From NCBI GenBank assembly GCA_947179485.1, contig OX359245.1, positions 787,001-851,000 of the forward strand: a DNA stretch of 64,000 bases, written 5' to 3'. Below, piece by piece: positions 8,861 to 60,660 of the stretch. Origin of the DNA: Allacma fusca. Lineage: Eukaryota; Arthropoda; Collembola; Symphypleona; Sminthuridae. Both the position numbers and the translations under genes were made by a program. The notes under the pieces were generated by a model. That model was not told the DNA's origin, ran no database searches, and worked only from the letters and a program-made list of their open reading frames with translations. Position 1 is the stretch's first letter. Every line of letters begins with the position of its first letter.

Positions 8861-9088
8861 CTCCAAATCAATCCTACTTAATCCAAATCAATCCTACTTA
8901 ATCCAAATCAATCCTACCTAATCCAAATCAATCCTACTTAATCCAAATCAATCCTACTGAATCCAAATCAATCCTACTTAATCCAAATCAATCCTACTTA
9001 ATCCAAATCAATCCTACTTAATCCAAATCAATCCTACTTAATCCAAATCAATCCTACTTAATCTAAATCAATCCAAATCAATCCAAAC
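8861..9088 (+). repeat. 20-bp minisatellite, about 10-11 copies
   Basis: The unit CCAAATCAATCCTACTTAAT is repeated head to tail with very few substitutions (CTACCTA in one copy, CTACTGA in another). The last copies are shortened. The low divergence suggests recent expansion or homogenisation. Confidence 0.95.
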
Positions 9089-10660
9089 TGAAAGGATGCC
9101 AACCAACCGGGAGAAGTTCTCAAGAGAACATTTCCGCTTCCCAAAACAATAAAACGTGCGTCGGCAATCTAAGATACATTAAAATATCACTAAAGGATTT
9201 AGAAGTGGCAAATCCCGAGATATATATCATATTACAAACGAATCACAAACTAAAATCATAAATCTAAAATCGAAACATACATCAATCTAAACCGTTTAAA
9301 ACATTCCATGTTCGTTTATTGTTACTGGTCAAGTTTCTCCCGCTGGAAGCAAACTCTGTTACTCCCAAACTACGTCAAAACGTCATCCCGAGACTACCAA
9401 AAATATCTTACTAGCTTTGACTAATTATCCTCCGTACGTACCAAATACAAATCTCCTTTCAGCTCATCAACCACCCCTACAAGCACTCGTTTCACTTCCT
9501 ACCTCATACCACCTAATCTCGTCTCTGAACCCTGTCCGACACTTACGCCTATACCTTCCCAATCCCAATTCTCAACCCATCCCCAACAAATCATTCCTAA
9601 AAGACGTTTCACCTAATCCCTCACTCTTATCATCCGTTCCATCCTTCCATAATCTTAAAATGCTTCCTTAATGTCCCCTTTCTTTTAAACATAGCCTCAA
9701 CCTCCACTCTTACCTCCCACTTACCAGATTCCACGACTACCTGAATATCTCGCAACTTACTGAACCCTTTTTCATCCCCGAATACCATTCCCCGTCTTCT
9801 TCTTTCACCTTCCATTTTTCTTTACTAAACACGAGAACAACCAATTAGCTTCCCCTTATTCTTTTTACATGTCCTTGGTATTAGCTTTCACACTCCAACT
9901 TCTGGAACTGAAGTACTCCTTCCCCATTTCAGTTCTCGTCATACAATCCCCGTCTTGCCCTCCTTAACCTTAAACCATCCCAGAGACCAACATCTCTTCC
10001 TTTATTACCTAATCGCATAGTATCTAACTTCACTGTCTCCCCTGTCTTTTTTCTCATCTCATAGTGCATTGTATTTGCTGAGTCCGAAACTATCCATCCA
10101 CAAGGCTACAGCTTCCACGACGTTCCTCAACCTTCCCCTTATTATCTTATCGTTCAAACTCATCTTTATTAAGCTTACGTCTTAACAATAACTACCTATA
10201 ACCCCGAAAAATCCTCTATAACTGCCTGAAAACTTATCACCCCTCCCTGATCATCATTCTGTTCTGAAACATCGTCAATTCTACACTTAATCCATCACAT
10301 ATTCGTACATCATCTTAAGCTCATTCCCAAACATCTTCAAATTCTTTATCCCTGAATCCAAACCTCCGAATTCTAATCTCCCGTCCCATCTTCTAACTAT
10401 CCCTAACCCACATCTTACACACCCTCTAATCTTTCATTGCAGAAACTCCCGTCTTGAACAAAATATACTAAACAACCATTATTTAACGCCAATACACACA
10501 ACCTCCAAGACTCACTCAGAACAAGGAGAACTGCTGCCACTTTCTTCAAACCATAGCTTCGCATACATATACAACCAAATCTACACCCTTCTTCCCAGCT
10601 TCCTGCTTCCAGTCCAAGTTTTCAATCCCCCCAGTCCTGCTCCATTACTTACTTTTAGTC
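9089..10660. other. Long tract with extreme C-over-G skew on the plus strand
   Basis: The plus strand is almost depleted of G: positions 9481-9540 hold 24 C and 6 G, and 9601-9660 hold 20 C and 3 G. The skew begins with the minisatellite and fades near 10660. It makes short frames such as 9417-9671 that are compositional artefacts. It may be a very old, diverged extension of the C-rich minisatellite or a region of strand-biased mutation. Confidence 0.7.
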
Positions 10661-12100
10661 TCTCGGTAGGAGTTCCTCGGTAAGTACCTGTCTAGAAATC
10701 ATTTTAGTAGTGTCTGGAAAACACAAAGCAGCAACGTGATTGCAGAAATAAATCTGTATACACAGTACATAATTATTCCTTAGCTTACACCAGCTCTAAA
10801 TACAATTACTGCACACATATCCAACGGAGGATGTAAGTCTCAGACTCTAAACTCTTCAAACGAACACCAGAAATGATCAATACCAGTCAAACATTTTAGT
10901 CATTAGATATATTTCTGAATGGTAATCTGATTCTGTAATATGCTGCTCCACACCAGATACACTAACTGCACGACTAAATCTCCATGCGCTACAGAGTAGC
11001 ACCAATGGCTGAACAAAAGCATCTCATGTAATCCTCTTGCTATAACTAGCATCAACATGAAGTCTGAACTCCCATCCTGATCAAATCCTTAATTGGGCCA
11101 CAGGATTAAAGCACACTCGTTTACTGAAGTGTGCAACTCCTGTCCAGGACAGACCGAGGAGACAACAGGAACATTATGACATATAACAAACAGGAAGCTA
11201 ACATAAACAAGAGCTTTATATACACTGGAGCGATTTCTCGATTACGCATTAAATACTATACTACACACCACACATTATAGTAAGTGTTGACAACTAAGAA
11301 AAAATAAAGACGCGTCGTTTAGAACTAGAACGACAACATTGTATGCTGAGTGGTAAACAGTTTGCTGTCACGGATTAAGAACTCCCTGGGTCTGAGTCCT
11401 TGTTGAGGTCTCTTACATGAGAGAAAACACCAGAGGAGAGGGTTAACCGAACAAAGCTTCGGGATTACTCGCTAGAGTGGTTCTACAATTGATTTGCTCG
11501 CTAGAGTAGTTCTCTGGAGTTCTGAAACTCTAGCACCATCTGCTATCACCCACCATCCCTTCGCTGCAGTTCATGTCATTTATATTGTTGACGCACAGCA
11601 CCTGGTGGAAAGTAAGGGGCAACCCCAGGCCCACTGTTGTGACTAGGGGAATAGGCATACGTTGTATAAATGAGTAAGGAGACGTGGCATGGGGAGGCAA
11701 CAGACTATTGCTCTGGAAAAGACGGACAATTGATCCCACCAGGGTGGAATCTGGAACGAGTGCGGGACATTGCAAGGGCAAATATAAACACGTAGTTGTT
11801 TGTTTGAACACATGCGTGTCTGTTTGCATCACAATTCCCATACCCGTGTCGCTGAGGATTATGTCCCGTCTTGCTCGCTTCTGTCTGGCAAGAGGGTGTG
11901 AGATGATCTACAAGAGTGACGTGGGGGAAGATCCCGGATGCATATGCATTACTATCTACTACTCTCCTGATCGTCTCATACTGGAGTTCCCCACTGACTC
12001 TCAGGAGTAAACGAAGTGCAACCATGTAGAGCATCCCTTGCTTCATTCCTTGTGGATGCGTTTTCTCCTTTTATTGCAGTATCGTGTTTAAGGAGCATGC
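10661..12100. other. Complex sequence without recognised gene
   Basis: Balanced base composition, GC higher than the surroundings. Overlapping open frames of 108 codons (plus, 11684-12010) and 113 codons (minus, 11705-12046) show no known domain, and their overlap on opposite strands suggests chance. A TATA-like GTATAAATGA lies at about 11663. An old retroelement terminal repeat or a noncoding exon are possible but unsupported. Confidence 0.3.
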
Positions 12101-21826: not shown

Positions 21827-22210
21827 CAGGGTTCGGATGTTCATGGGAAGATTCTTCCCAGGGAAAAAAATATTTCTGGCAGGGAAAATCACAAACGGAA
21901 GGGATTCTATTTTACAGACAGGGATTTTAAAAATCGTTGATCTTTGTTTTGGCACGGATTTTCAGATTTGTTGTCGTGTTTCAGGGAAATTGGTTAGGCA
22001 CACAGGGAATTTTAGATTGATTGACCATATATGGACAGAGATTTGACGCCTTGTGGGGAAATTATTTTTGCCAACAGGGATCTTGAAAATCGTTGACCTT
22101 TTTTTAGCAGGGATTTTTGAAATCGTTGAGGACCTCCCAGCAGGGACGTTTGACTCAGCAGGTAAATTCATAAATGATCTTGCAGGGAGATTTGAAAAAT
22201 CCGACCCCTG
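21827..22210. mobile_element. Small hAT-like element, 384 bp
   Basis: The ends CAGGGTTCGGATGTTC and CAGGGGTCGGATTTTTC are inverted, flanked by the perfect 8-bp duplication CCTATAGG (21819-21826 and 22211-22218). The interior is an array of GGCAGGGA/AGGGATTTT words. A fragment of the same family lies at about 58280-58400. Confidence 0.9.
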
Positions 22211-36552: not shown

Positions 36553-38625
36553 CTATTCAAAACTGTCAATTAAACGGAATGAAACTTGAGTTCCCTTTCT
36601 ATATTGGTAGTTTTGCCTCTTGAACCTTATTTCAGAAATGGGCCAGACCTGTAATTGTTCACCAAATTTAATTATGTATGTTCCGGTAAGTGATGATTTA
36701 CAAGGGAAATTATAAAACGGTTTTACAATGTGACACTTATAGCCAACCAAAACTTGGTCTAATTGTTCAGAAGAGTCACAAAAGTAATTAATTACTACTA
36801 TTTGTCCACACTGAAGCTCCACACAGTTATCCCGTTGAGAATTGTTTATGCAAATATGTTTCGAAATAGTAATTTCCTTGTAAAACGGCGGAACACAATT
36901 TCTGGGTACACTTTTAGGTGCTGCATCACACTGTACTGGATTTTTAATAACAGTTGAAGAATTTTGAATAAGTTCTTGCTCAAAAACCCGGCGATATATT
37001 TGCTGTAGCTTACAATTATTTTTCCTTAATAAAGATTTTAAATGTCCCAAATAATTTTCAAACCGAAAGGCACTAAAACTGTCTACAGGCCCAAGATGAG
37101 AAACATCATCTGCAAGGTGTAATAAAGAATGAATATTGATCGAAATATTAAAATCCCCATAAAGTTCCCCGAAGGTTTCAACAAAATATGTTAGAAGCGA
37201 ATTTGCATATTTATTGAATTTGATGCATAAATCCGGCTTAGCCAAAACTGTAATGGCTACATGCAGAACCAAAAAATGATGATAATAAGTTTCTGGAAGA
37301 AACGACTTCAAAACAACTGGTCCTGAATACAATAAGAATTGGCGAAACTCGGTTGCCTTCCATCTTCGAACATCGTTAAGAGACCTTGGTTTTCTATTGA
37401 AGCAGGAGCTTGTGGTGGCTCGGAGTTTTTCCAAATTTGCTGATATATTTTTAACTTGTAAAGATGACAATCTCAATTTGGACACATCACCATTTAACCA
37501 TAAATATACTAACTTCCGTACAACTCCTAAGCACACTAAGTGCATGTATTCGACTGGGAAGCATTTTATCAAATCCAAGGGCAGTTCTTCAATTATACTT
37601 GTACCCGTGTGGTGTTGCTCGTCAGTTTTATTCCGAAAACTTTCGTCAGTTCTGATAGGCGATTTGACTTCCTTAAAAAATGTCCGACCATTCGCATAAC
37701 TTCCTTCAATTAAACATTTCCCACAAGATGAGTATCCTGTGTGACCTTTCGTGCTTTTAACAAAAGCACGAGCCGGAATGTCGCAAATTACAGCTTGAAG
37801 TTCCAGTTTAAAACATTTCCCCTCAACACTAAAACCCTTTGTCATGAGAATTTTACATTCATCGACAAATTCCCTTAAATATTCATTCACACATTTCGGC
37901 TTATCTTTTTCGCCGCACCATAAGCCAACCACAAATGGGGTATTGTTGCTTTTGACGATATAAGCTAGTATTGGTACTAATGTTTTACTCGAGCTTTTTG
38001 AGACTGGGATCCCGTCAATATTTATTTGCAACCTTATGCAAGAATCAAGGCCTGCTTTACTGCTTAGAATGTACTTTTCAAGCTGCCGGCGGAGTCCAAA
38101 GTGACAGTAAAATCCGGGCGGAATTTCGTGAATTTGTACAATTCTTGGTGTTGACACAAGGGTCCTAGTGTCCTTTGGCAGTTTGTCAAAGTAATTAGTT
38201 TTCCTTAAAATTTTCAACAGTTCATTCACATGAGCATGTGGTACTTTATTTCTCACAGTCCAATAAACCAATTGTTTTTTAAACGTTTCTTCAATATCTT
38301 TCACTTCATATTCACTATCACTTAAATCGGTATAACTTAAATAGTGCAATATTGCAGTGGTTGGGGAAAGGTCATCTTTACTTGCTTTTGTAACTGTTCG
38401 GGGGTTTGTGGGGATCGGAAATTCACTTTGAACGTTATTATGTGGATCATTATGATGGTTGGCTACAGAGTTATTATTTGTACATTGAGAACTTTCTAAA
38501 TTTGATACATTAAATGAAAACTCACCCGTTGGTTTTTTGGCTCTGACGTTTTCAAGTAGGTCTTCAGTTTTTCGTTTTATAATTCTACGATGATGAGCCT
38601 TGGAATGGATCCTGGACGATAGCAT
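36553..38625 (-). CDS. CACTA/EnSpm transposase, intact 690 aa
   Basis: This is the catalytic transposase of the element: cut-and-paste DDE/D recombinase of the Transposase_21-like type. Visible motifs are a first acidic site in INIDGIPVSKSSSK (Asp204), a second in CDIPARAFVKSTKGHTGYSS (Asp282), a zinc-knuckle-like GH-x5-CGKC (residues 294-304) and the family signature VEYMHLVCLGVVRKLVYLWL (358-377, one position varying from the usual D-Y/x-M-H). A C-terminal segment (IVVINYF, then VGYKCHIV and ISEIRFK) resembles the small beta domain that often follows. The frame is uninterrupted from ATG (38623-38625) to TAG (36553-36555) with no intron, in contrast to the damaged companion gene. The basic N-terminus (HHRRIIKRK) may be a nuclear signal. 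Confidence 0.95.
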   Translation of the reverse strand: MLSSRIHSKAHHRRIIKRKTEDLLENVRAKKPTGEFSFNVSNLESSQCTNNNSVANHHNDPHNNVQSEFPIPTNPRTVTKASKDDLSPTTAILHYLSYTDLSDSEYEVKDIEETFKKQLVYWTVRNKVPHAHVNELLKILRKTNYFDKLPKDTRTLVSTPRIVQIHEIPPGFYCHFGLRRQLEKYILSSKAGLDSCIRLQINIDGIPVSKSSSKTLVPILAYIVKSNNTPFVVGLWCGEKDKPKCVNEYLREFVDECKILMTKGFSVEGKCFKLELQAVICDIPARAFVKSTKGHTGYSSCGKCLIEGSYANGRTFFKEVKSPIRTDESFRNKTDEQHHTGTSIIEELPLDLIKCFPVEYMHLVCLGVVRKLVYLWLNGDVSKLRLSSLQVKNISANLEKLRATTSSCFNRKPRSLNDVRRWKATEFRQFLLYSGPVVLKSFLPETYYHHFLVLHVAITVLAKPDLCIKFNKYANSLLTYFVETFGELYGDFNISINIHSLLHLADDVSHLGPVDSFSAFRFENYLGHLKSLLRKNNCKLQQIYRRVFEQELIQNSSTVIKNPVQCDAAPKSVPRNCVPPFYKEITISKHICINNSQRDNCVELQCGQIVVINYFCDSSEQLDQVLVGYKCHIVKPFYNFPCKSSLTGTYIIKFGEQLQVWPISEIRFKRQNYQYRKGTQVSFRLIDSFE

Positions 38626-39023
38626 CGGTAAAGTTAATGAGCAACTGTACCTCTAAGTACTGACACAACGCCCACGGCTACTACGGATACTTGCGGAGTT
38701 TATACTGAACGCTAACATTTTATTGTTTGCAAGTTTAGATTTGGCGCTCTTTTAGCTAAAACGTTTTATGAACGTCACAATCACGACAAATGGGTAGGAA
38801 TTTGGAACTGCAGGTGAACTTATAAACGTATTGTGATGACGTTAGTGAAACGTTTTTATTTCGTACCTTTTGCGGGACAAGATTAGCCTGTTGGCGACAA
38901 AGCTTGTAATTGCGCAAACTCGTTTTATACTTGCCATTGTGACGTTTATGAGACAGGCTAAACATGTCCGTTTTTAGGGACGAAGTTAGCCCGATTTAGA
39001 CGAATTTTGTACGGTTTATAACT

Positions 39024-43050: not shown

Positions 43051-44250
43051 AAAAATTCTAGTCCCATTGCAAAATGGCTAATCATATTGCATAATTTTCT
43101 AAACCCAATGCAAAATGGCTACACCCATTGCGTGAAGGCTAGTCCGATTGCAAAATTGCCAGTCCCATTGCCAAATGGGGAGTCTGATTGTACACTGGCT
43201 AGTCCTATTGCGTAATGGCTGGTCCGATTACAAAATGGCAAGTCTCATTGCAGAATGGCGATTCCCATTAATAAATGACAAGTCCCATTGCAAAATGGCT
43301 AGTCCTATTGCAATATAGCTAGTCCGGTTGAAAACTGACTAGTTCCATTGCACAAAAGTTACTCCCATTGCAAGATGGCTAGTCTAATTGGAAAATGGCT
43401 AGTTCCATTGCAAAATGTCTAGTCATATTGCAAAATAGCTTGTCCCATTAAGAAATGACAAGTCCCGTTGCAAAATGGCTAGTTCCATTGCAAAGTTTCT
43501 GGTCTTATTGCAAAATAGCTAGCCCGGTTTAAAAATATCTAGTGCAAAATGACTAGTCCCAATACAAAATGGTTAGTCCCATTGCAAAATGGCTAGTCCG
43601 ATTGCAAAATGGCTAGTCCCAATACAAAATGATTAGTTCCATTGCACAATGGTTAGATCCATTGCAAAATGGCTAGTCCCATTGCAAAATGGCTAGTCCA
43701 ATTGAAAAATGGATAGTCCCAATACAAAATGGTTAGTCCCATTGCAAAATGGCTAGTCTTATTGCGGAATAGCGAGTCCCATTGCAACATTTCGGGTACC
43801 ATTGCAAAATGGCTAATCTCATTGCAAAATTGCCAGTCTCATTGCAGAATGGCTAGTCTCATTGCAGAATGGCTAGTCTCATTGCAGAATGGCTAGTCTC
43901 ATTGCAGAATAGCTAGTCTCATTGCAGAATGGCTAGTCTCATTGCAGAATTGCTAGTCCCATTGCAAAATTTGTAGTCCAACTGCAAAATGGCTAGTCCC
44001 ATTGCAAAATGGTTCGTCCCATTGCAAAATGGTTCGTCCCATTGCAAAATGGTTCGTACTATTGAAATTTTTTTTGTCCCATTGGAAAATGGGTTGTCCC
44101 ATTGCATGATCACTAGTTCCATTGCAAAATGATTAGTCATATTGCATATAGGTTAAACCCGATGCAAAATGGCTACACCCATTGCGTGATGACTATTTCC
44201 ATTTTAACATGGCAAGTCGCATTCTATATGTCTAGTCCCCTTGCAAAATG
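43051..44250. repeat. 20-bp minisatellite, about 55-60 degenerate copies
   Basis: The unit ATTGCAAAATGGCTAGTCCC recurs head to tail for 1.2 kb with many substitutions and small indels; 43801-44100 keeps perfect 20-bp phase. The 73-codon minus frame at 43919-44140 arises from the repeat. It abuts the gene-remnant island that follows. Confidence 0.95.
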
Positions 44251-44259
44251 GGACAAACC

Positions 44260-44745
44260 TTCTGCCTGAGCAGCGCGATGGACGTTTTACTGCACATAGA
44301 GTCGAAGTCATAGACATCTGACGTTCATTGCATGGTCGAGGAACTTTTAGTACTTGTTTCGGTCGATGAGGAAGTTCTTGCACTGCAGACCAAATTCCAT
44401 GAATATGCATAGCACCAGTGTGTAGACGAACCCTTGGGCCAGTGATATGTATGCTTGTCGTCCCCGACCTTTCCCCAGCATCCATCGAAGGCATTTGTGG
44501 ATGGTATCCATGCCAGGTTGATTTTGTTTCCCGGCTGTATCAACGGAGCAAACACATGTGGCTCGTTCCATCTCTTCCTCTCCTAATTCTTAAGCAAGAG
44601 AAGGATGCTACCTACTTCGCCGCAAAGCTGAGGATCTTGTTATCGTTGTTTTCCACGTCATGTACCGGGTTGAAATTCTCATACACGAACATATCAAGCA
44701 TGGCTCCTACCATACCATAGATATAAGTCTAGGGCAAAGATTTAC
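44260..44745 (-). pseudogene. Coding remnant, possible membrane protein, unidentified
   Basis: The minus strand reads, across frame breaks, MVGAMLDMFVYENFNPVHD, then a frame with a hydrophobic stretch AQGFVYTLVLCIFMEFGL, CKNFLIDRNKY and KFLDHAMNVRC. The hydrophobic stretch could be a membrane helix. Higher GC than the surroundings and coherent frames make decayed coding sequence likely, but I cannot name the family. Confidence 0.4.
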
Positions 44746-44789
44746 TTTCTATAAGGATATGGCTTGGTATCTCGATAATGCACCTTAAA

Positions 44790-45180
44790 GTGTTGTGTGT
44801 GGTGTAGTAGAACAGTGTCAGTATATTATTAAAACAGAAAGTCAAAAACAAGAAGTTCAACAACATTCTCACGACGCTGGTGAAGTACGCTGCGAAGGTC
44901 CGTCTTTTCTTTATTGCCAGCAGATTTTAAATCTGAAATTAGTTTTACAAGGTATCCTCCAACGAGCTAAAAAGGTTTGCAATCGTTGCTGTGTTGTCAT
45001 GGTCCCCATGGAATGCAAATAAAGCCCAAACTGAAAGAGTATCAGCACCATATTCTTGGACAAGGAACTAGGAAGAAACTTTTAGGGTGTCCAGTACGTT
45101 GACGATCTGAAGCAGGACGAAAACTTCTTTTTTTTTGGCTTTTCGTATGGTTCAGGCCTGGTTTGCGCAAGATTTGAGGA
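44790..45180 (+). pseudogene. Coding remnant, unidentified
   Basis: Broken plus frames include KVKNKKFNNILTTLVKYAAK, VRLFFIASRF and NELKRFAIVAVLSWSPWN, with frameshifts and stops between. Composition is coding-like, the family is unknown. It lies immediately upstream of the histone deacetylase remnant on the same strand. Confidence 0.35.
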
Positions 45181-45204
45181 TATAAGGGAGGCTTCGGTTT
45201 ATAG

Positions 45205-46473
45205 CATAGAGTGATTTATTTCTGCGATCCTGAAATTGTCAACTTTAACTACGCAACTGGATATCCGATGAATCCCCTGAGAGTGCAGATGACGCACGCG
45301 CTTCATAAAAATTACGAGCTTTACAAGTATTTGGACGTGCATCGCCCTTGTCACGTGTCCTACGAGAATTTCACTAATGTCCATTCGGTCGACTACATAA
45401 ACTTTCTCTCGAGCGTTTCCAGCGAGAACATGCATGTGATGATCTAAGATCTCCACAAGTTCAACATACGGGATGATGACCCGTGTTTAATTGCATCTAC
45501 GACTACAGCAGGGTTACTGCTGGTGGGACATTGTTTGCGGCGCAGAAGATTAACTCCGGGAGGCATGACGTAGCTTTAAACTGGCCGGCGGACTGCACCA
45601 TGCCAAGCGGAACGAGGAATCTGGTTTCTACTATGTCACAAACATAGTGCCGGGGATCCTCGAGCTCCTGAAGTACTATAAGCGGGTCCTGTTTATGGAT
45701 GTCGAAGTCCATCATTGTGATGGCAGATGGCACCGAGTACGCTTTCTAAACTACGGGCATGATGATGACATTCTCCTTCCACAAGTACGGCCACAACTTC
45801 GCCGGAACGAGAATCGTTGCCGACATTGGCTTGGCCAAAGGGAAGAGCTACTCGGTGAACGTGACGATCAATGATGGGATTGACGACGAGAGCTACTTCA
45901 ACATTTTCAAGCCAGTAATAAGCAAGGTCATCGAGACGTACCAACCTTGTGACGTTGTGCTGCAGTCCGGGGCGGACTCGCTGTCTGGGGACAAGCTTGG
46001 CTGCTTCAACTTGTCGCATCTGGGTCACCCTTGATGCAATAAATGTGTATAAAGCTTTAATATACCGCTTGTTCTACTGGGTAAAGGCGGTTACACAATA
46101 CGTCGTGTGTCCACGGTGTGGGTTTACGAAACGTACGTCGTTCTGCAACTCGAGATTCCCTAGGATATTCCATACAACGAATACTTCGACTACACGCACC
46201 GACCAACAGTATTGACGTACCTATCTCCAACATAGCAAACCAGAACACTCGGAAAGGTTTTGAGGATCTCGTAGAGAGGGTGCACGAGAATCTGATGGGA
46301 ACCGCTTATGCTCCATCGGTCCAAATGATCAGCATACCCCCTTGTTTATCAGCGACAAAAGCGAGAAGGACTCTAGTCCCAGCAAAACGACAGCATGTGT
46401 CGGCAAAGAAAATTCTGAAGATTACAAGGACTTCTCGGATTCAGAAAATAGCAATGGGCAAGACTTTTCATAA
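45205..46473 (+). pseudogene. Histone deacetylase (RPD3/HDAC1-HDAC3 class I), broken by stops and frameshifts
   Basis: Class I histone deacetylases remove acetyl groups from histone tails using a zinc site. The whole domain is readable in order: HRVIYFCDPEIVNFNY and LRVQMTHAL at the start; a stop after about 80 residues; [49 protein letters not shown] (usually HHGDG); [46 protein letters not shown]; a damaged glycine loop [43 protein letters not shown]; and an acidic tail ending DFS at TAA (46471-46473). At least five frame changes are needed, including a small GATGGC duplication near 45720. No intron is present. The ENL-x-x-T-x-x-APSVQ segment looks closer to fungal Rpd3 than to animal HDAC1 (inference from memory of the families). 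Confidence 0.92.
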
Positions 46474-46848
46474 ATGGTTGTTTATTCGCACGATTTTGAG
46501 ACCATGTTCCGGTAACTGTGTTAGAGAATCTTTGCGCATTTTCAGAGCGTCTTATAGATTCTCAGAAACCCTGATGAGTGGCCGAATATGCAACATGCAA
46601 CCCCCGAGATCATAGGCAACTTCGTCTCTCAGTCCGTGTCATTCTCTTTTCAGCAGGTCCTTAGTTTCGACGGATCCCTGGATTTGGAAATCGCGATTAT
46701 CTTGTATGTATCTTTTGAAAAGCAAACCATGAACTTCAAGTCCTACTCGTGTCTGCCTTCAATTTCTACAACCAAGCTGGTGCAACGGTATCTGTATAAG
46801 ATCAGTATGGATCCATTTGTGTTCATTACCACCTGCTCCACAAACTAA
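46474..46848 (+). pseudogene. Coding remnant directly after the deacetylase, unidentified
   Basis: An ATG (46474-46476) follows the deacetylase stop with no spacer. Through two frame changes the plus strand reads MVVYSHDFETMF, VTVLENLCAFSERLIDSQKP, then DEWPNMQHATPEIIGNFVSQ and on to LVQRYLYKISMDPFVFITTC before a double stop at 46846. About 125 codons, intronless. No family was recognised. Confidence 0.5.
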
Positions 46849-46929
46849 TAGCCGTCCACCCACAACTTAAGGCTGCTCACATAGTTCTCTGAATCACATG
46901 TCACGATGGCCAGCACCTCATGGAATTCC

Positions 46930-47410
46930 GCATCCTCAACGGCACTAAGCTACTTTCGTCGGTCTCCAAATATAACAGATTAACCACATCGGCGATACGT
47001 CACCGCCTCATCTCGCCATGGATGTCGTATCCGTTGTCAATGTATAAGTCTGCATGCTGAAAGAACTCGGAGTAGGCCTTGCCAACAACAAGCCCGTAGC
47101 TTTCCCTACCAGGTTCAATGACTTAGATAGACAGCAGCTGCTCGTGGAAGTATTTTAAGACCAGCCAGCTGCTGCTGAGCATGATTTTGTACTTTGCAGA
47201 GAATGTTTCGAAGTAAGTGGCCTGGTGGTGATCGAATCTCTGCGTTCCTGGATCAAACACGACACCGACATCGTAAACAATGTTTCCATTTGCGACCACA
47301 GATGGATCTTGAGCTGTAGCAACTTCTGCGCCGGGATGCATCTTCAGCAACATTGAGGATAAAAGCACCTCGTCGTAGTGATATCTTCCGTTGTGAATTA
47401 CAAGCTTCAT
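46930..47410 (-). pseudogene. MYG1: MYG1-family (UPF0160) metal-dependent exonuclease, N-terminal half
   Basis: MYG1 proteins are DHH-like 3'-5' RNA exonucleases acting in the nucleus and mitochondrion. From ATG (47408-47410) the minus frame reads HNGRYHYDEVLLSSMLLK (family H-(N/D)G-x-(F/Y)H-x-DE), ATAQDPSVVANGNIVYDVG, FDPGTQRFDHHQATYFETFS (the DHH-type metal motif) and KIMLSSSWLVLKYFHEQLLS, then a stop at about residue 95. Beyond it a second stretch continues as VGKAYSEFFQHADLYIDNG and RIADVVNLLYLET, matching the family IDNGI region, with further stops. The C-terminal third is missing. It lies tail to tail with the preceding remnant, spaced by less than 100 bp. Confidence 0.87.
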
Positions 47411-47599
47411 TATGGTAAACGTTGCGAAGCATTAACACGAAGGTAGCAAGAAGCTATAACAACACTAAAACTAGTTAGTTTGAGAGCTATGAGGTTACTG
47501 GATAACACACTCGTATCTCTAGTCTAATTCCGTTAACCCGCGGATTGAGCTCCTTTCTCAGGTAGGTGCTACATTTAACTCAAATTTGGCGATTTTACA
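47411..47599. other. Short spacer between divergent remnants
   Basis: Space between the MYG1 start and the leucine-rich repeat remnant; nothing recognised. Confidence 0.4.
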
Positions 47600-48155
47600 G
47601 AATACAGGTATTTAATTTGAGTGGCTGATCAAGACGTGAAATCCATACTGGCTCAGGAAAGAACCTAAAGATCATACCTCAGGATGTATTTACAAACAAG
47701 GACCTAAAGGTGCTCTCTGTTTATTAAAACGAGTTGAAATTACTTCCTGCGGAACTACGGACTCTTAACGAGCTGAAAACTCCTAATGTTAGCAAAAACG
47801 CGTTGACTGAGCTATTACAAGATGTAGGATATCTAGTGAAGCTGTAATGAGTTAGCGTTGCTGCCTAGACAAATGGATAAGCTCTAGCAATTAGAACACC
47901 TAAACGTTTTTCAAACAAGGTAAAAGAAATATCTCGGGAGATTGGAGCTAACGAGGCTGCAAACTGGACTTTTCTTACAACAACAGATTTAATTCATTAC
48001 CAAAGGAGAACCTCATGGAGTTAGAAGTGCTTATTGTCAGAGCAATCTGTCAGACGACCCAATGGTCCTCAGGGAATCCAGCTATGCTCAGGGAGGTCCA
48101 CGAAGAAGTGATAAAATTTGGCGCCCCTAATATCTTTAAGAAACGCGCCTGCTAA
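47600..48155 (+). pseudogene. Leucine-rich repeat protein, broken
   Basis: Successive plus-strand segments fit about 23-residue leucine-rich repeats: LKIIPQDVFTNKDLKVLSVY, NELKLLPAELRTLNELKT, NVSKNALTELLQDVGYLVKL, LEHLNVF, NKVKEISREIG, FNSLPKE and LMELEVLIVR. Stops and frame changes separate them. Such repeats occur in CCR4-type deadenylases and in many regulators; the rest of the protein is not visible, so the exact type is open. It is divergent from MYG1 with less than 200 bp between. Confidence 0.68.
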
Positions 48156-49705
48156 GGTGTAATGCGATCTTTGTTAAGCCTCTTTAACAGTATGGATCTT
48201 TCACTGAATTGGACAAATATAGGCATACATCTATTGGTAAAATAGAGTGTCTTCCCTTTGAAATTTTACCTGCCAGAAATATTATTTGTCTGCGAAGAAT
48301 CTACCTGTCTTCCCACAAAAATCCTCTGCGTTTAATGGTTTCAAGATATTTTTACACAACCCTCTATATCGTCTTCATGGCGTCATTTTTCCGTCAAGTT
48401 TCGAAGTTGCACTTCTGCACATTCATTGCTAAAGGGGAGTATCAAACAGAGAATATATTCGACATGATTTCAATAATTTAAAACTGGTTACGTGATAAAT
48501 TGATAGAAACAAACAGTTTCCATAAAAGGCTTATATCTGGCGACCACTAGCAGTTGATACTTTAAGACCAGAAACCTTGTTAGCTGCAGACACCGGTGTT
48601 TCGTCCTATTTGGGACTCGTCAGTACAGCGCAAACAGAAAAAAATGACTAGCGACTGACTTCGTGAACCGTCAGTGGCAGAATGAAGATTGACGTAGAAA
48701 ATAAAAATATTATTTTCCCAACTTCAGTTGCTGCTCGAAATAATTCAATGTTTGTTTTTTGGAAAAGAGATGGTTACATCTCAATATCCATGGTGCTCAA
48801 CGGAGCAGCTATTTACAAAACTTGAATTCCGACCAGCGCGGATTGATTATAAAGAGGCAAAGAGTTTTTCATATCACGAATTTGATAATTTCAATAATTT
48901 AAAACTTTAATTAATTTAAAATCGTAATTCGACATGTTGTGTATACGTGTATATGATACACCTTGGGAGTGAAACCATATATAATGGAACTAAAACATTC
49001 GAAACAGACCAATGCAAAAGTTCCATGACGAAGTCGGGTAGTAAACATGCTTTTCCTTTAAATGTTTTGGGTTATATCATAGAGATGAGTTAACAGAAAG
49101 ATCTGATGTTCGTATGTTTTCAAGTGCCCTAAATTACTGGATGCAGACCCAGTATTATACATTTCGTTCAAAAAATATTTTGTGCTACCTACCATGTATT
49201 ATATTGATAATTTTCCCCATTTTTGCTCAAGCATCATACCTGTTGACGGCTGTTATTATTTTTCTACGCACTTTCTTTCTCCCTGGACAAAAGACCTTAT
49301 GCTTAAAAAATTATAAACAAAATGCCAAGGCAGTTGCACATCTTTGTGGATTCCCTTACACGATATGCTTTTGCGGATTTCCTGGGAGACAGCATCTTAA
49401 TATAGGGAGCCTTTTTTGGAAAAAAAAATGTTTACATGTTTTCTTGACAGACCAGTGCAGGTACTCAGAAATAAAGATGAACAATGAACGTGGAGCAGAT
49501 GTTTTTAGGTGGTGAAAAACCTTGATAAGAAATTCGGTTAATTACCTGAAGATTAGAAGGGACTGGGATTAAAGGATTTGTCGAAGACTCCCTAAGGATA
49601 AGGATGCTGAGGACAGGATAGACCGAGGATATCCTGCAAAGCCTGAAAGCCGCTAGGTTGGCTCTTGAGCAGAATGCTCGGCAATATTCACTAGTAAAAC
49701 CAAAA
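48156..49705. other. Stretch without recognised gene
   Basis: Frames of 90 codons (48209-48481) and 133 codons (49114-49515, hydrophobic by AT-rich composition) have no recognisable domain. A short coding-like patch with LEQNARQYSLVKPK lies at 49660-49705. Confidence 0.35.
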
Positions 49706-52001: not shown

Positions 52002-52235
52002 AGTTTCAAATTCCAACTCACCCTGAATCGAGCACTTTGTGGGCTGTTTAAACACAGTAATAGCATTACTACTATTGTCACTGCAATTATTTTATAAACA
52101 GATCGATGAAATGTCACCATTATGTACAGACTATTATACTGACCTATTGTTTAAGAACCAGCGTAGGATCGATAGATGGTTTCTGTCTTGGACCAAAAAT
52201 AAACCGCTACTAACCTCTATTTCAACTAAAGGGGT
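52002..52235 (+). repeat. Direct repeat, copy 1
   Basis: About 230 bp closely match 52910-53143 in the same orientation. Both are open in the same frame (with KQIDEMSPLC and KNQRRID in common), so the repeat may come from coding sequence. Confidence 0.8.
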
Positions 52236-52909
52236 TTGCGAGAGGAGAGAAAATTCAGCGTTTGAAATACAATATGTGCACTGCTACAGTTTAGGAGCTC
52301 TATGGAATTCATTGTATCAGTGCAAATGGCTATACGAAGCGCATATGTGTATATATACAGTCATATATGTACAGATCTTCTAAGTACATAGTCATTTGAA
52401 TTTACTCGTGTTTTAATAGGATCGTAATATTCTTATTCTAGGCTAAATGACTATTTTATTTGCAACATCATGTAATGAACTACATTTGGCATGAGCCAAA
52501 TAATAGAATGATCCATATATGCCCTGATATTGCCTAGGATTGTGTTTAGTTCTGATGATTAGTGACTCATGGATATAACGACACTTCGTGATATCATAAC
52601 TTGAGCTGATGTTTATACGTTTCCATAGAAATATTATTGTCAGATGTCAACTATTTTAGTACCAGGTACTCTAGAATAGGGAGGCAGAAGGACACTGTCC
52701 CCTCATAAAAATTCTGGGCCAGTCTATGCAACTTTACCCAAATTTTTCAGGAATGGAATTATCTTTTGCTGAATTTCCACTACTAAAACTGACGGAAATG
52801 TGTTATAAAATTTAAATATTTGTTAAAGAAGAAATTTCGACATCTTCTAAACAAGCATGTTCTCAGCCTGTAACAAAGTATTTGTTATTCATTTTGTTTG
52901 TTCAAGGTA
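52236..52909. other. Gene-free stretch between direct repeats
   Basis: No supported feature. Confidence 0.4.
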
Positions 52910-53143
52910 ATTCTAATATTCCAACTCACCATAAATTGAGTCCTTTGTGGACCGTTTTAACACAGTAATCACATTATTACACATATCACTGCAATTATTT
53001 TATAAACAAATCGATGAAATGTCACCATTATGTATAGACGATTATACTGACCTATTTTTTAAGAACCAGCGGAGGATCGATAGCTGGTTTTTGTCTTGGA
53101 TAAAAAACAAAATGCTACTAACCTCTGTTTCAACTAAAAGGAA
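52910..53143 (+). repeat. Direct repeat, copy 2
   Basis: Second copy of the 52002-52235 repeat, joined in frame to the coding remnant that follows. Confidence 0.8.
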
Positions 53144-53579
53144 TTTCGCGGAATTGTTCATCAAAACCTTCGATGTTGTGCAGTGTGATAGGTTTCTGGC
53201 CTCCACAGATGGTAGAGCCACCGTTTGTATGCGTTTTGCTGAAGACGAGGAGCTTATGAAGTTTTCCCCTGTCAAGCGGATATATATGCTTTTAAAGAGC
53301 TCGCATGAGAACGAGACATGCTACTCGATTAGCAGATATCTCGAATATCCTCCGATAACTCCTGATCATCAACGATAATACCGCAGAGAAAAAGATTCTC
53401 AGCTTCAAAGATTTCGTCAAACAGACAAACAAGTTGATACTGAACGAGGCATGACTGATATGTAACGGTTGCGGCCTTCTTTCGGATGCTTCAATACTGG
53501 CAAGGCTGCTAAAGCAACTGCGAACTAATAATACAACCTTGGTTAGACTGTTGCGATGGGTCTTTGCTAGGCCCTGAAA
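53144..53579 (+). pseudogene. Coding remnant, unidentified
   Basis: A frame continuing from the repeat reads FAELFIKTFDVVQCDRFLAS, ATVCMRFAEDEELMKFSPVK and RIYMLLKSSHENETCYSI; after frame change it goes on as KKILSFKDFVKQTNKLILNE, LICNGCGLLSDASILARLLK and ends RWVFARP. Coherent coding composition over about 140 codons, no intron, at least one frameshift and one stop. I do not recognise the family. Confidence 0.45.
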
Positions 53580-59224: not shown

Positions 59225-60660
59225 TGTTTAAATGGGTGAAACGAGAAGCGGGTGGAAGGGGTTCTGACGTCACTGCTGTATAGAACTTGCGGGAAAATGA
59301 GTTGCTACTCATGCACAGCCATATAAAAGTATACGAAGGGAACTTTGTTGCGATTTTTAAATTAAAGGCAAATTAATTAATTAGTAATTCCATGTAACAG
59401 TTAATACCTGAAAAATCTTAAACTACAGTTTATCTGAATCATGGACTTTGTGCTGTGAATGAGTGCAAAAATCAAATCGGTTAAAGTTTCATATCTGGTA
59501 TATATGTAGATATTTAATTAAATCTGGCGTTGACAATAAAAAATCACCTAAGAACCACCACGTATGATTTCACTCCATTTTGTGAGAATATAATTGGTAT
59601 TAATTGAGAAATTTGCAGCGACAGTGTGAACCATTAAAGTACCACCAAGTATATTTTCACAGCCACTATATTTGGTATTAATTGAGAAGCTTGCAGTTAC
59701 AGTGTGAAACAATAAAGTACCACCAAGTATATTTTCACAGCCAATATATTTGGTATTAATTGAGAAGCTTGCAGTGACAGTGTGAAACAATAAAGTACCA
59801 CCAAGTATATTTTCACATACAATATACTTGGTATTAATTAAAGGAAATCTTGTGCTGGTACTGCAGAGTTACGTGAGACAAAACAAATTTCGACCACACC
59901 GACAACGTAATTTGTATTAATTTTTCTGAAACTAGTGCGGACAATAAGGAATCACGCAGGTGTTACGAAACGTATTTGTTTTTACATTAAATAAGGTTAG
60001 TATTACTTGAACAAAACCTTTGTGGATGAATCAGAATTCGGGTATTTGGAAACCTAACCCGTCGTTTCGGACGTTCAGTTTAGGTCGGTGGGGTTAAAAT
60101 ATACTTGGTTTACCCAAATTCTCATTGTCAGCACCAGTTTTCCTTCAATTAATACCAAGTATATTTTCGGTGGAGTCAAGATATACTTGGTTTGTCTTAT
60201 GTAAATCCTCATCACTAGCACCAGATTTCCTTCAATTAAAACCAAGTATGTTGTCGGTGGAGTGAAAATATACTTGGTGGTACTTAAGTGATTCATGAGT
60301 TTATTTCAGTTCTATATTTTTTGCTGGTGTTAATTATTTTATAGCTAAAATTTTCGCTGCTAGTTATATAGGGATTGCATTGGGGTATTGAGAATCTTTT
60401 TGTCGATTTTAATCATTCCTTTTTCCTTATTTAGAGAACGAATCTCAAGTATTTCCCAGGGTATTTAGCTTCTAAATTGCAAAAACAGTACTGTTAATCT
60501 GAGTAATTTTTCTAATTTTGATTTAGGCAATGCTAGTTATATAATTTATTCATTATTTCATCCAACCCTACCATTAGCAAAACCGTAAACTATGCTCTCC
60601 TCAATTCACGTATACAGCAGTGACGTCATCAGTCGCCCCCGTTCTTTCATACGAGCGACA
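59225..60660. mobile_element. Palindromic element with GACGTCACTGCTGTATA inverted repeats
   Basis: A perfect 17-bp inverted repeat (59267-59283 and about 60612-60628) lies inside diverged outer ends beginning CACTGT and rich in G. Inside, a roughly 80-bp unit with ACCACCAAGTATATTTTCAC is repeated about three times (59575-59830), and the same AAGTATATTTTC/AATATACTTGG motif is found inverted at 60100-60290. No transposase is visible. Confidence 0.7.

Follow-up and report, generated by a model that had tools for sequence, protein, structure and literature searches.

The window analysed here is a 64,000-nucleotide stretch of a chromosome of the springtail Allacma fusca (assembly GCA_947179485.1, contig OX359245.1, positions 787,001 to 851,000), and within it, at approximately 44.25-48.2 kb, lies a block of broken coding remnants that measures about 3.9 kb as preserved. 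A first-pass annotation, made from the letters alone, had described the block as six adjacent remnants on both strands, without introns and richer in guanine-cytosine (GC) than the surrounding animal DNA, and had proposed a single insertion from a microsporidian-like genome. The surroundings are indeed animal, namely A. fusca DNA, and the GC content of 0.447 in 44260-48155 exceeds both that of the rest of the window (0.362) and the maximum (0.415) among 524 equally long, overlapping stretches elsewhere in it. Three genes were recognised at the places where they had been reported: a histone deacetylase (HDAC) on the plus strand, a MYG1 exonuclease-family gene on the minus strand and a leucine-rich-repeat (LRR) protein remnant on the plus strand, the last being the weaker call because its Pfam matches lie below the curated cut-offs. 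HDAC and MYG1 stand tail to tail, with about 90 bases separating their aligned ends, and the LRR remnant lies beyond them, which bears out the two-strand arrangement. The count of six did not survive, since alignment merges the stretch between HDAC and MYG1, previously taken as a separate coding remnant, into the 3' part of MYG1, leaving three recognised genes and one or more remnants without a family.

The HDAC remnant (45208..46455, plus strand) is a full-length, intronless pseudogene of a class I histone deacetylase with five stops and five frameshifts. We aligned HDAC and MYG1 to their relatives using our own frameshift-aware script with three reference proteins each; for HDAC these were P0006, P0007 and P0008, and the stop and frameshift counts were identical against all three. 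Against P0007, 411 of 415 residues could be aligned at 70% identity. The Pfam family PF00850 was matched by one piece at 67.6 bits (cut-off 27.9) and by the N-terminal piece at 22.6 bits, under the cut-off, and together with the alignment these pieces place an HDAC domain over the whole length of the pseudogene. A weak SF3A3 match of one HDAC piece was taken as chance. In a phmmer search of 5.8 billion sequences the best E value was 3.1e-179, far beyond chance, and the comparisons that follow cover the best 120 of 3177 matches. Closest among these were P0006 and P0007 (67% identity) and P0008 of Encephalitozoon hellem (66%), followed by another protein at 65%, with P0011 of Ordospora pajunii lower down at 61%. 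An HDAC2 row from Myotis with a duplicated domain, P0010, ranked fifth (580 bits, 51% identity, 72% coverage), and the first other non-microsporidian row, P0071, reached 434 bits versus 614 for the top match.

HDAC and MYG1 both lack introns and are broken, features shared by processed pseudogenes, and we considered whether the block consists of host copies of HDAC, MYG1 and LRR genes, either retrocopied or duplicated and decayed, that lie together by chance. Among the best 120 matches, however, the HDAC remnant is 66-67% identical to the best Encephalitozoon-like rows and 46-51% identical to named animal rows. We then placed it in two phylogenies: a careful tree of 37 rows, comprising the window HDAC and 36 of the 119 listed relatives, 17 of the rows being non-microsporidian, and a quick tree of 120 rows with all 119 relatives, the Myotis row P0010 being excluded from both. 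Rows without a species name were labelled microsporidian where these trees put them among named microsporidia. In the careful tree the window HDAC falls into a seven-row clade with P0006, P0007, P0008, P0009, P0011 and P0012 (support 100/97), and the same clade appears in the quick tree with a Shimodaira-Hasegawa-like approximate likelihood ratio of 97, although that tree carried a warning of long branches joining deep within it. Forcing the window HDAC onto the 17 rows from animals, fungi and other non-microsporidia cost 57.8 log-likelihood units and was rejected by the approximately unbiased test (p 1.5e-6), so that descent from the host's own gene, by retrocopy or otherwise, is rejected for HDAC. 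The tail-to-tail arrangement of HDAC and MYG1 and their similar decay, described below, are likewise unlike independent retrocopies, and we regard an origin from host pseudogenes as extremely improbable. HDAC nests inside the microsporidia, within the Encephalitozoon/Ordospora clade, as the proposal of a microsporidian-like source had anticipated. Microsporidia are fungus-related parasites that live inside cells, and the earlier remark that the HDAC looks fungal-like is true only to the extent of that kinship; in the careful tree, the three Mucorales rows cluster with the non-microsporidia.

The MYG1 pseudogene (46545..47410, minus strand, perhaps extending slightly past 46545) is nearly full length and also intronless, with five stops and three frameshifts. 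Alignment to P0001 covered 285 of 298 residues at 57% identity, with 55% for P0002 and 54% for P0003, and the counts of stops and frameshifts were again the same against each reference. A 102-residue N-terminal piece matched the Pfam family MYG1 (PF03690) at E 8.3e-26, which establishes family membership, the remainder being assigned by alignment. The best E value of the protein search was 6.8e-93, also among 5.8 billion sequences. Only five of 805 candidates passed E <=0.001, namely P0001, P0002 and P0003 (53%, 50% and 51% identity in this search), P0004 (34%) and P0005, an annotated A. fusca gene model; no protein named as Encephalitozoon or Ordospora was among these five. The absence of introns, the broken state of both genes and the compact mixed-strand layout had all been noted from the sequence, and agree with what is expected of a donor with a gene-dense, intron-poor genome.

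The two genes appear to share a contig in relatives as well. The records of their matches agree pairwise in the number of contigs and the length of the longest contig: P0001 and P0007 (3; 47565), P0002 and P0006 (1; 20659) and P0003 and P0012 (1; 21821). HDAC and MYG1 are thus very probably carried on one contig in three microsporidia. In the microsporidia compared in PMC12449221, gene order is shared by close relatives only, and the probable pairing of HDAC with MYG1 fits a donor near the carriers of P0001-P0003. Taken together, the similarity and the probable linkage point strongly to MYG1 sharing the microsporidian origin of HDAC.

To assess how far the two genes have decayed, we counted changes at conserved residues. 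In HDAC, 19 of 81 residues that are invariant in 119 relatives are changed in the window copy; other residue sets gave 20 of 109 when conservation in 98% of these rows was required, 21 of 89 when a residue had to be invariant in every one of the 64 microsporidian rows, and 26 of 124 when 97% of the latter sufficed. In MYG1, where four relatives defined the invariant residues, 29 of 101 are changed. Assuming 2.25 amino-acid-changing sites per codon, this corresponds to 0.10-0.13 changes per site in HDAC and to 0.13 in MYG1. Under neutral decay, where 4.2% of single changes make a stop, 8.7-11.3 stops are expected in the 696 codons of both genes, and 10 were observed. The stop number and the changed invariant residues are those expected without selection, and such similar decay in both genes argues for one event with no selection afterwards. 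The claim of a single DNA-level insertion from a gene-dense, intron-poor genome is supported by the strand layout, the GC content and this similar decay, and the decay fits a fragment that was dead on arrival.

The same decay bears on whether the block is an artefact. According to PMC12558613, sequencing data from 40 host species have yielded microsporidian genomes, and a contig of a living microsporidian might have been misjoined to springtail DNA by chimeric assembly or contamination. Yet 10 stops and 8 frameshifts across HDAC and MYG1, with 19 of the 81 invariant HDAC residues changed, would hardly be found in a living microsporidian, and on these grounds we rejected a living contaminant. 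The gene model P0005 provides a second line of evidence. Its 195 residues map exactly to the minus strand at 45696..47341 in three pieces (47341-47192, 47104-47003 and 46028-45696), and in it two stretches of the MYG1 pseudogene are spliced to a piece read antisense to the HDAC pseudogene (46028-45696), which suggests a spurious gene model built on dead parasite genes. The longest contig in the record of P0005 has 9578 bases, shorter than the window and longer than the block, so that at least one further A. fusca contig contains the same sequence. This contig holds the same pieces, identical at the protein level, the comparison covering these pieces. Two A. fusca assemblies have been described, a fragmented one (GCA_910591605.1, PMC9630974) and one from HiFi and Hi-C data (GCA_947179485.1, PMC10427803), and the window and the P0005 contig probably stem from these two. 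We consider a chimera or contamination very unlikely.

The outer parts of the block are less well preserved. The leftmost broken remnant (44500..45110, minus strand) was delimited by reading frames and codon usage and has hydrophobic stretches reminiscent of a membrane protein, while 44260-44500 was given to no gene. In a codon-usage scan based on HDAC and MYG1, one minus frame is positive over 44500-45039, but at 44260-44439 and 44980-45219 plus frames equal or exceed it; the left-hand remnants may, but need not, represent one minus-strand gene. No family was found for the leftmost remnant in searches of Pfam (up to E 10), NCBIfam and PDB. Membership of the TAPT1/Emp65 family, considered for this remnant, was not supported, Pfam giving no family up to E 10 in one scan and E 5 in another. 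On the right, the heavily broken LRR remnant (47620..48155, plus strand) matches LRR proteins in the PDB at E 1e-18, whereas in Pfam LRR_8 (E 2.3e-4, 21.3 versus 27 bits) and LRR_14 (E 2e-4, 20.6 versus 40 bits) both remain under their curated cut-offs; its codon-usage score is positive only at 47960-48139. Just beyond it, a match to the alsin PH domain at 48188-48478 (E 0.0045, under cut-off) was taken as chance. The outer remnants might share the microsporidian origin of HDAC, a suggestion that we make with little weight.

On its left the block adjoins a 20-bp minisatellite of about 60 copies (43058..44251, Tandem Repeats Finder), the direct repeats of which stop at 44252. On its right, at most 82 bases away, a repeat at 48237..48305 has an inverted copy of 81% identity at 21846-21915, which indicates that the ordinary DNA of the window has resumed there. 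If the LRR remnant is counted as part of the block, this places the right edge somewhere from 48155 to 48237. The presence of this repeated sequence so close to the right edge, together with the transposable elements that microsporidia and animals are reported to exchange (PMC4202319), would suit a segment that arrived as cargo of a transposon or DNA virus common to parasite and host. Against such capture, neither terminal repeats, direct or inverted, nor a target-site duplication could be found convincingly around the block, the pairs seen being short and chance-like; the pieces of the block that were scanned gave no Pfam match to a transposase or a viral family, and a minisatellite forms the left edge. 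Relatives of P0007 were not found in viral contigs, and of 20 pattern matches in bacterial and archaeal genome contigs none was confirmed. Capture by a mobile element is in our view unlikely, if somewhat less so than a misassembly.

We are highly confident that the block is a single fragment of a microsporidian genome, of the Encephalitozoon/Ordospora lineage, which entered a chromosome in the ancestry of A. fusca and has since decayed neutrally. The genome GC contents given in Table 1 of PMC12449221 are 41.9% for Encephalitozoon intestinalis and 37.5% for Ordospora colligata, next to 0.447 for the block. In the proposed sequence of events, a microsporidian would have occupied a cell of the germ line or of the early embryo of the ancestor, and its DNA would most likely have patched a double-strand break next to the break-prone minisatellite; the inserted genes, presumably without a selected role or function, would then have decayed neutrally. 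Patching of a break is the simplest account, given the lack of bracketing repeats, the lack of a mobile-element family in the scanned pieces and the minisatellite at the left edge.

Several points weigh against this interpretation or limit it. The tree with non-microsporidian outgroups covers HDAC only, MYG1 resting on similarity and on a linkage in the relatives that was deduced from contig statistics and not from DNA. The branch of the window HDAC is long, at 0.94 in the careful tree and 1.43 in the quick tree, which is expected of a pseudogene but makes the exact sister (P0006, 96/65) unsure. The comparison of decay is rough, as the conserved residues of MYG1 were defined from four relatives and those of HDAC from up to 119. 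A protein search with the leftmost remnant and the LRR tail retained none of 248 candidates at E 10, and an insertion scar, including a target-site duplication, was not recognised around the block.

The mutation rate in insects is about 3e-9 per site per generation. At this rate 0.10-0.13 changes per site would correspond to some 30-45 million generations, an upper figure with a wide error because changes in the donor that predate the transfer are counted in. It is tempting to speculate, although we hold this a little short of an even chance, that at insect-like rates an Encephalitozoon-like parasite infected the germ line at least on the order of ten million years ago, and that further fragments in A. 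fusca sample an extinct or unsampled MYG1-bearing parasite of springtails. The locus supplies a donor clade, a gene order, edges and a decay clock, by which the age of the association between microsporidia and springtails becomes testable in related springtails, and it is a warning for pipelines that remove or count microsporidian sequences.

Elsewhere in the window, 20 of 65 open frames of at least 90 codons, all outside the block, were compared with Pfam and gave two weak matches below cut-off, DUF4806 and BCHF. An uninterrupted frame of 699 residues (36556-38652, minus strand) has no Pfam family at E 0.01 and is possibly, at a guess, a transposon protein of the host. Two plus-strand frames about 0.9 kb apart (52027-52380 and 52935-53375), also without a Pfam family, start alike by eye and are perhaps copies of one repeat. 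At 8862-11000, a 20-bp tandem array of 11 copies is followed by 2 kb of extreme GC skew (-0.57, -0.46) in which one strand is strongly C-rich, and a 78-bp tandem repeat occupies 59587-59839 (3.2 copies, 92% matches).

To our knowledge, there are few documented cases in which an entire stretch of a eukaryotic parasite's nuclear DNA has passed into the germ line of an animal. One likeness is offered by the nuclear inserts of Wolbachia in insect genomes, such as those of tsetse (PMC3998919). In Wolbachia inserts, DNA of an intracellular, egg-transmitted microbe has entered the germ line of its host, whereas in the present case a eukaryote, whose nuclear genome is compact, acted as donor. The transposable elements exchanged between microsporidia and animals (PMC4202319) represent an exchange of DNA between these groups, but they are self-mobile, while the present insert consists of ordinary housekeeping genes in one segment with no element seen. 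The gene transfer reported for Ordospora colligata (Pombert et al., 2015, PMC4313915) also involves a relative of Encephalitozoon and a host, in the opposite direction, from host to parasite. A 2025 paper (PMC12558613) states in one sentence of its main text that microsporidian-to-host transfers exist, without giving the host or genes there, and that text does not mention Allacma, springtail, qeAll, HGT (horizontal gene transfer) or Collembola. No other paper on microsporidian genes in a host genome was recognised in our literature search, subscription papers and preprints aside. As far as that search goes, this kind of transfer was known, barely, and the gene-level case in a springtail is new. 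The transfers stated in PMC12558613 belong to the same class of event, in which an animal host genome carries DNA of microsporidia without current infection, and to these the present locus adds the anatomy at the level of genes, the donor clade, the decay and the edges.

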